From NCBI RefSeq assembly GCF_036013525.1, contig NZ_CP107853.1, forward strand, positions 9,548,001 to 9,612,000: a stretch of DNA of 64,000 bases. The letters run 5' to 3'. The stretch's first letter is position 1, and each line of letters begins with the position of its first letter. The position numbers and the translations under genes are program-made. This DNA comes from Nonomuraea sp. NBC_00507. Its GTDB lineage: Bacteria > Actinomycetota > Actinomycetes > Streptosporangiales > Streptosporangiaceae. This document shows positions 13,397-14,068 of the stretch, piece after piece. The notes under the pieces are model-generated. The model searched no databases and was not told the origin of the DNA. It was given only the letters and a program-made list of their open reading frames with translations.

Positions 13397-13864
13397 TCAG
13401 TGGAGGTTCCGCAGGAGGAGGGCGGTCTCGAGCGCAGCGACGACCGACTCATACCCCTTGTCCTCCTTGCTCCCCGGCAGACCCGACCGATCCAGGGCCT
13501 GGTCGAGCGTGTCGCAGGTGAGCACGCCGTTGCCGACCGGGGTCTCCTCGTCCAGCGAGATCCGGGTCAGGCCCGAGGTCACCGAGTCGCAGACGTAGTC
13601 GAAATGGGCGGTCTCGCCCCGGATGACCGCGCCCAGCGCCACCACCGCGTCGCAGCGGCGGGCCAGCGCCTGGGCGACCACCGGGATCTCCAGTGAGCCC
13701 GGCACCCGTACGACGGTGGCCCTGGCGCCGCTGTCGTCGCAGGCCTGCACGGCCCGCGCCACCAGCTGGTCGGTGATCTTGGCGTGCCAGCTGGCCGCCA
13801 CCACCCCCACCGTCAGCCCCGAAGCGTCCGGCACCGTGACACCCGGCCGTCCTTCCCCACTCAT
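13397..13864 (-). CDS. ribH: 6,7-dimethyl-8-ribityllumazine synthase
   Basis: 155-aa enzyme condensing 5-amino-6-ribitylamino-uracil with 3,4-dihydroxybutanone phosphate to give lumazine, the penultimate riboflavin step. The family motifs [25 protein letters not shown] and [18 protein letters not shown], with the active-site His, are intact. The ATG overlaps the TGA of the preceding repeat-encoded mini-ORF (ATGA). Its ribosome site GGAGGAGG, 4 nt upstream, lies inside the last copy of the 71-bp tandem repeat, so ribH translation depends on that repeat. Confidence 0.97.
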
Positions 13865-13935
13865 GCAGCCTCCTCCGTCGGCCGCACGAGCGGGACCCCG
13901 CTGTGTCTGATTGATCGCTCGCTACGCTCGCTCAT
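13861..13935 (-). CDS. Mini-ORF 3 of the tandem repeat, coupled to ribH
   Basis: 24-codon ORF beginning [11 protein letters not shown] and ending RPTEEAA. Its ATG overlaps the stop of mini-ORF 2 and its TGA overlaps the ribH ATG (both ATGA). The start is preceded by GGAGGAGG. No similarity to a known peptide is recognised. It may simply hand ribosomes from ribBA to ribH, or be a by-product of repeat expansion. Confidence 0.5.
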
Positions 13936-14006
13936 GCAGCCTCCTCCGTCGGCCGCACGAGCGGGACCCCGCTGTGTCTGATTGATCGCTCGCTACGCTC
14001 GCTCAT
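13932..14006 (-). CDS. Mini-ORF 2 of the tandem repeat
   Basis: 24-codon ORF with the same peptide sequence as mini-ORF 3 ([11 protein letters not shown]...RPTEEAA). It is coupled on both sides by ATGA overlaps and has its own GGAGGAGG site in the upstream repeat copy. Translation is plausible from its layout but unproven. Confidence 0.5.
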   Translation of the reverse strand: MSERSERSIRHSGVPLVRPTEEAA

Positions 14007-14068
14007 GCAGCCTCCTCCGTCGGCCGCACGAGCGGGACCCCGCTGTGTCTGATTGATCGCTCGCTCAT
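14003..14068 (-). CDS. Mini-ORF 1 of the tandem repeat, coupled to ribBA
   Basis: 21-codon ORF ([10 protein letters not shown]...RPTEEAA). It lacks the extra Ser-Glu-Arg triplet of the other two because its repeat copy is 9 bp shorter. Its ATG overlaps the ribBA stop (TCATGA) and GGAGG in the last ribBA codons supplies a ribosome site. It is probably the ancestral unit from which the array expanded (inference). Confidence 0.5.

Follow-up and report, generated by a model that had tools for sequence, protein, structure and literature searches.

The ribBA and ribH genes of Nonomuraea sp. NBC_00507 are joined by a tandem array of three mini-cistrons, and we consider it probable that this array arose by tandem amplification of a short mobile relay cistron of the MIRU type, itself probably non-autonomous, that occupies RTGA stop/start overlaps within operons. 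On the likeliest reading, the element is mobile and nearly neutral, and it relays ribosomes in a way that maintains translational coupling.

Anatomy of the array between ribBA and ribH

We analysed a 64,000-nucleotide stretch of DNA, here called the window. TRF reports a period of 71 with 2.9 copies and 100% matches at 13860-14065; the copy nearest ribBA is the 62-bp unit, which is 9 bp shorter than the 71-bp units and otherwise without mismatch. ATGA is present at all four junctions (ribBA/mini-ORF 1, 1/2, 2/3 and 3/ribH), confirming the relay of three identical mini-cistrons from ribBA to ribH that the preliminary description had reported. GGAGG precedes mini-ORF 1, and GGAGGAGG precedes mini-ORFs 2 and 3 as well as ribH. 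Within the window, the element model matches the three array copies, their reverse palindromes and one more place at E 0.82, which was taken as chance. An Rfam search of 13000-18500 with E up to 1 gave no match at the array; its only matches were an FMN riboswitch and, inside this riboswitch, a weak AdoCbl-II.

Table 1. Coordinates in the window of the array, its neighbouring genes and the associated hairpins
Feature	Position	Strand	Basis or detail
Mini-cistron array (three relay units: 62, 71, 71 bp)	13861..14068	minus	TRF, ORF reading and element model
Mini-ORF 1 (21 aa)	14003..14068	minus	ATGA overlap with ribBA stop; 9 bp missing
Mini-ORF 2 (24 aa)	13932..14006	minus	ORF reading
Mini-ORF 3 (24 aa)	13861..13935	minus	Stop overlaps ribH start via ATGA
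ribBA, upstream neighbour; its stop is the first relay junction	14065..15282	minus	NCBIfam equivalog NF006803, 667.2 bits, cut-off 569
ribH, downstream neighbour	13397..13864	minus	NCBIfam equivalog TIGR00114, 134.5 bits, cut-off 84.6
ribH hairpin over ribosome site, start codon and first three codons	13856..13894	minus	Arm 13880-13894, loop 13871-13879, gene side 13856-13870
Copy 2 counterpart of this hairpin, over mini-ORF 3 start	13927..13965	minus	Reverse match of palindrome
Equivalent hairpin of copy 1 over mini-ORF 2 start	13998..14036	minus	Reverse match of palindrome
Filler AGCGGG, partial third copy of the gene start	13897..13902	minus	Sense repeat of ribH about +4 to +9 (AGTGGG)

The operon has the order ribD, ribE, a PnuC-like gene that scores just below its model cut-off, ribBA, the array and ribH. 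The FMN riboswitch (RF00050, 100.2 bits) lies on the minus strand at 17932-18062, upstream of ribD, and ribD itself contains an in-frame 24-bp repeat (3.9 copies, 17060-17152) that encodes a repeated GRAASPDA.

The unit is a dispersed element that follows a frame rule

A BLAST search with the array found eight further places in the 12.9 Mb genome of the organism itself, and the seven loci that were fetched have a common plan, consisting of RTGAGCGAGCGNAGCGAGCGAAC..ACACAGC, a palindromic stretch that encloses a GGAGG site, and an RTGA where the next gene begins. A covariance model of the element (R1, threshold E<=1e-3 for the own genome and those of the genus) gave 31 matches at 28 sites in the own genome, that is, at 27 sites besides the array, and it matched 54 of 54 genomes of the genus with 1-44 matches per genome. 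A second model of the element (R2), used at E<=1e-4, matched 111 of 250 genomes of the family and 43 of 394 genomes of the class, and 27 of the latter 43 belong to eight other families in which the relatives are weaker; because few candidates were scored per genome and the filters were strict, the counts from these scans are lower bounds, and the weakest single hits may be chance. The array unit as such is not a chance pattern, because a sequence-only pattern of its 5' half has 38 matches in 53 genomes of the genus (at least one match in 14 of them) and the same pattern read backwards has 0.

The genes that follow the element are varied: 17 of the 20 downstream genes scanned in the own genome gave Pfam matches, to classes including transport, MerR, WYL, LC7, IGPD, aldehyde dehydrogenase and others. 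At the opposite end, copies in the own genome whose left end is TGA are preceded by more than 100 open codons in the TGA frame in 16 of 25 cases, a modest excess over the other two frames (17 of 50).

Beyond the first 29 loci, copies from relatives were taken as 80 further rows among the matches listed, and 13 of the 168 loci in the element-copy set, mostly upstream tandem copies, were excluded for having no start at the expected place. In 133 of the resulting 155 copies the relay is closed by a 4-nt RTGA overlap. Fifteen copies are 0 mod 3 in length and in frame with what follows, nine of them passing the next start and six showing no stop as far as the fetched sequence goes. Seven copies form no relay and no fusion: four have a length of 1 mod 3 (a start codon is lacking in two of them), a fifth also has no start, a sixth overlaps by a single nucleotide and the seventh meets its stop 50 nt too early. 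Counted by gene cluster, 66 of 75 have a relay copy, and 19 of the 24 copies read in six other families also close the relay. Unit lengths are mostly 71 or 68 bp, and those other than 71 bp are 2 mod 3 in 47 cases, 0 in 15 and 1 in 4. Closure of the relay requires 2 mod 3, and the unit length is nearly always of this class. The preliminary description noted that coupling is kept with a 71-bp period that is no multiple of three; the length is not free, given that 2 mod 3 is what the relay demands.

We note two deviating forms. L327 (G021) and L329 (G039) have a normal 5' half and a 3' hairpin half that is different or missing, and at L112 (G000) an element-like insert with GCGACC on both sides runs in frame into what by eye is apparently a LacI-type regulator.

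Copy number and occupancy differ between two genomes of one species

A second genome of the same species (G046) differs from the genome of the window (G000) both in the number of copies that a site holds and in the sites that are occupied. Between ribBA and ribH there are three copies in G000 and one in G046, and copy number differs at seven orthologous loci altogether (G000/G046: 3/1, 1/2, 1/2, 1/3, 1/2, 2/1 and 1/2). Seven sites in G046 have no counterpart in G000: three face clean empty sites in G000 that are missing exactly 71, 71 and 68 bp, and one (L155) faces a place that holds a 22-nt remnant; the assessment of emptiness covers these four, since at L151, L153 and L154 at least one flank had no match in G000. 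Two of the three empty sites (L149 and L158) may be losses in G000, given that elements precede these genes in other species too. The left and right ends of the element agree at positions -2, -1, +1 and +5 (as high in 0, 1, 0 and 2 of 2000 shuffles), with no clear excess at the other 14 positions tested, three of which are invariant; agreement of this kind is what a short target duplication would give. At L154 in G046, three copies of ~72 bp stand in tandem, the last of them sharing the reading frame of the next gene; in-frame units of this type would give the next gene an N-terminal extension.

A hairpin arm matched to the downstream gene

Pairing is possible between the 3' half of the element and the beginning of the gene that follows, in a stem that spans -6 to +9 around the start codon, and in the array the arm mirrors the first nine bases of ribH with two wobble positions. 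In an alignment of copies found by sequence (10 of the 11 extracted, copy 2 of the window being left out), both sides change in 8 of 15 pairs, and each of the five measures is higher than in any of the 500 shuffles or in any slide. In 83 model-aligned copies, an alignment that leans towards structure, both sides change in 12 of 15 pairs (as high in 1 of 500 shuffles; covariation, 0 of 500). The isolated ribH hairpin has a folding energy of -34.4 kcal/mol (z -3.46). When the whole array is folded (z -2.67), the partner of the ribH start in the best structure is the copy 1 arm instead of the copy 3 arm, because the three arms are identical; the ribH start is occluded in the predicted fold with either arm. 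Across gene clusters, the fold with the own gene is the stronger one in 63 of 74, and the start codon has an unpaired probability of 0.01 with the own gene versus 0.17 with swapped genes.

The sequence of the arm follows that of the gene. In the own genome, arm and own gene match at 89 of 120 bases over +5..+9, compared with 0.34 per base for swapped genes (0 of 20000 as high), with 6 of the 30 copies omitted as upstream tandem or unanchored and the arm fixed at 22 nt (16 in L113). Over 74 of the 75 gene clusters, the match at +5..+9 is 290 of 370 against 143.3 in shuffled pairings (0 of 5000), and it declines from 71 clusters at +5 through 66, 61 and 50 to 42 at +9 and 22 at +10; beyond the match, at +10..+12, it is 53 of 222 against 56.5 shuffled. 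Both R1 and R2 contain arm-gene pairs and will favour matching arms among the copies that they find; we therefore repeated the test on copies found with the 5'-half pattern. This sequence-only set (42 occurrences, 3 without a recognisable start, 35 distinct, 20 clusters; those with <140 nt downstream skipped) is smaller and has a weaker excess, with 69 of 100 at +5..+9 against 46.4 shuffled (0 of 5000) and 17 of 60 at +10..+12 against 14.4 (1211 of 5000 shuffles). Where orthologous copies precede differing gene starts, each arm of the pair follows its own gene at 84 of the 159 differing positions; the arms are unchanged at 42 and are changed without both matching at 33, and where the genes agree the arms differ at 69 of 356 positions. 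These are raw counts rather than excesses over shuffles, from pairs that are not independent within clusters. With one orthologue pair per cluster, 32 positions follow, 13 are unchanged and 11 are changed without both matching. The filler in turn repeats gene bases from about +6..+9 in the sense orientation, with 106 of 228 matches against 63 (0 of 5000, n=38) for one spacing type and 43 of 76 against 31.6 (1 of 5000, n=19) for a second, the test covering 57 of the 74 clusters and omitting 17 of neither spacing.

In other families, 11 of the 24 copies read are not tailored in this way: the arm of these copies, six from family f26 and five from f13, is near-constant (GTGCCTCAT or GTGCCTCGT) whatever the gene. 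These relatives (L312-L317 in f26, L305-L309 in f13) are 77-86 bp long, with near-constant GTGCCTCAT in the place of the gene-matched arm. A limited search of the open-licence literature returned no published account of a gene-matched arm.

The match between arm and gene may be kept by selection and/or templated repair. We also considered that the arm is written at insertion, by insertion or repair chemistry that reproduces the target gene's first ~9 bases in inverted order and a few of them again in sense, which would make the match a scar rather than an outcome of selection. This explanation is possible, if on the doubtful side. It would fit the end of the match at +9/+10 and the third, sense copy of about +6..+9, which has no obvious RNA role, as well as a copy that precedes another copy (L100) and has an arm matching the start of that copy; arms also match in copies that are absent from the conspecific genome, two of these absences being possible losses. 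However, a scar does not readily account for the gradual fall-off from +5 to +9 or for arms that track gene changes between orthologues. Moreover, the same insertion in the two conspecific genomes (L101/L162) differs in both gene and arm, and the arm at L149 matches the filled and not the empty allele. Also set aside were a guide-like arm that selects matching targets, as near-identical cores bear different arms; overwriting of the gene start by the element in the case of ribH, the start of which is similar in empty relatives; and RNA attenuation by a filler:arm mini-hairpin, with stems of 3-4 bp and loops of 1-3 nt that are presumably too weak in RNA.

The ribBA-ribH junction in relatives

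We surveyed the junction at 80 named ribBA-ribH loci and in the window, and scored 80 of these (L053 is unscored). Fifty have a bare RTGA overlap and 30 are filled. In 28 of the 30, the filling closes a relay on ribH. Among these are fillers unrecognised by R2, as short as 17 nt (L014) and as long as 334 nt (L079); the two junctions without a closed relay are L072 (3 nt) and L074 (604 nt). R2 matches the element at 13 of the 81 junctions, weakly at L065 and L066, in the genera Nonomuraea, Microbispora, Planomonospora and Streptosporangium, and the number of copies at a junction is 0, 1, 2 or 3. The comparison of relatives proposed in the preliminary description thus bore out both a variable copy number and the conservation of the junctions. 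On a tree of the 80 rows, the six Nonomuraea carriers need four gains or losses, two of which are forced by well-supported branches. A different filler is present in Nonomuraea sp. PA05 (L020, junction before 3001), where short tandem repeats around GAGGAGCCGGATGAGC form a relay of 11, 11, 6 and 6 codons.

The survey bears on the idea, put forward in the preliminary description, that the array is a riboflavin-specific regulator in which the number of mini-cistrons sets the RibBA:RibH ratio via reinitiation loss. That the relay between ribBA and ribH is kept whatever the filler suggests that coupling of these two genes matters, and the range in copy number is what such a regulator would offer. 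Nevertheless, we regard a riboflavin-specific device, and copy number as an evolved dial, as improbable: the element stands at 27 other sites in the own genome, before unrelated genes for transporters, MerR, WYL, LC7, IGPD and aldehyde dehydrogenase, most scored ribBA-ribH junctions are bare, and two genomes of one species differ in copy number. A further suggestion, that the 21-24-aa peptides act in their own right as functional products spread by the element, fares still worse and appears very improbable to us, even though the SERSER core is found repeatedly and variability is somewhat higher at third codon positions than at the first two (0.60 versus 0.40 and 0.42 bits, n=43), because the C-terminal half is dictated by the arm and hence varies with the neighbouring gene, certain copies simply extend the next gene in frame, and the core is a GC-rich internal repeat. 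Finally, an assembly artefact or plain local tandem duplication can be dismissed for the element, if less firmly for the exact number of three, since, although assemblies classically collapse or expand at identical repeats, the unit is present in all 54 genus genomes searched and other assemblies carry 1 and 2 copies at ribBA-ribH.

Discussion

Our working model for the mobile relay cistron starts from how it is built, with RTGA at both ends, a small frame-closing ORF and a strong ribosome site. The mini-ORFs are probably translated: a ribosome finishing ribBA at the ATGA would restart on mini-ORFs 1, 2 and 3 in turn and so reach ribH. A stem of ~15 bp, the upstream arm of which lies within mini-ORF 3, could lock up both the new ribosome site and the start of ribH. 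This stem would keep free ribosomes out, and a ribosome translating the mini-ORF would melt it; because the arm lies inside mini-ORF 3, a ribosome finishing this ORF would have to melt the local stem. By enforcing coupling, the hairpin would stop the strong ribosome site of the element from uncoupling ribH and make the insertion tolerable. Expression of ribH would stay tied to upstream translation, and the insertion would be nearly neutral. The element probably moves, and its copy number would vary through tandem gain and loss.

MIRU units are about 40-100 bp long and are dispersed in many copies. According to a 2025 review, MIRUs are apparently mobile, insert at start codons, have an internal ORF coupled to the gene at -4 nt and are likely to have minimal impact (PMC12548453), and the units at senX3-regX3 are 77 and 53 bp with a strain-variable tandem copy number (PMC2453075, PMC4213456). 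By our own arithmetic, both of these published lengths are 2 mod 3. Judged by these descriptions, the present element shares with MIRUs short dispersed units (here 31 matches in the own genome and occurrence throughout the genus), a small ORF with a DTGA-type stop/start overlap (here 133 of 155 copies) and a strain-variable copy number (here seven loci between G000 and G046). A site in operons that overlaps the end of the upstream gene, a further trait of MIRUs, is seen here at ribBA, with a modest excess of open frames upstream of the copies in the own genome. It differs in being present in Streptosporangiaceae and, weakly, in other families, in a unit of mostly 71 or 68 bp and, compared by description rather than sequence, in a hairpin arm that copies the neighbouring gene. 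A limited search of the open-licence literature gave no MIRU sequence; by description, the present element would work like a MIRU.

REP/BIME and other hairpin repeats are likewise short, dispersed, palindromic and non-autonomous. REP/BIME-type repeats are mostly non-coding and extragenic, whereas the present unit is an ORF joined to both neighbours, with a palindrome that differs with the target. Upstream coupling ORFs, according to the same review, deliver a ribosome to the next gene (PMC12548453). They resemble the present unit in being short ORFs whose translation would open the next start; the arrangement here is instead borne by a repeated element with a gene-matched hairpin.

More tentatively, and with more doubt than confidence, we propose that the element belongs to a class-wide actinobacterial family of mobile relay cistrons, and that in one branch of this family the element would write the first ~9 bases of its target gene, inverted, into its own arm, and part of these bases again in sense. 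If such a self-customising branch exists, each copy would be a tailor-made lock on a start, opened by the relay ribosome only. We know of no target-copying insertion process of this kind.

If the reading of the array as a mobile relay cistron is right, MIRU-like elements would be one case of a wide actinobacterial strategy and not a mycobacterial oddity, a strategy in which mobile DNA survives inside operons through ribosome relay. The gene-matched arm, if right, would be a natural and many-times-repeated experiment on what translational coupling needs, and would also reveal an unexplained route by which a tiny element adopts the sequence of its target. The element may, in addition, account for odd MSERSER... 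mini-genes and N-terminal extensions in annotations.
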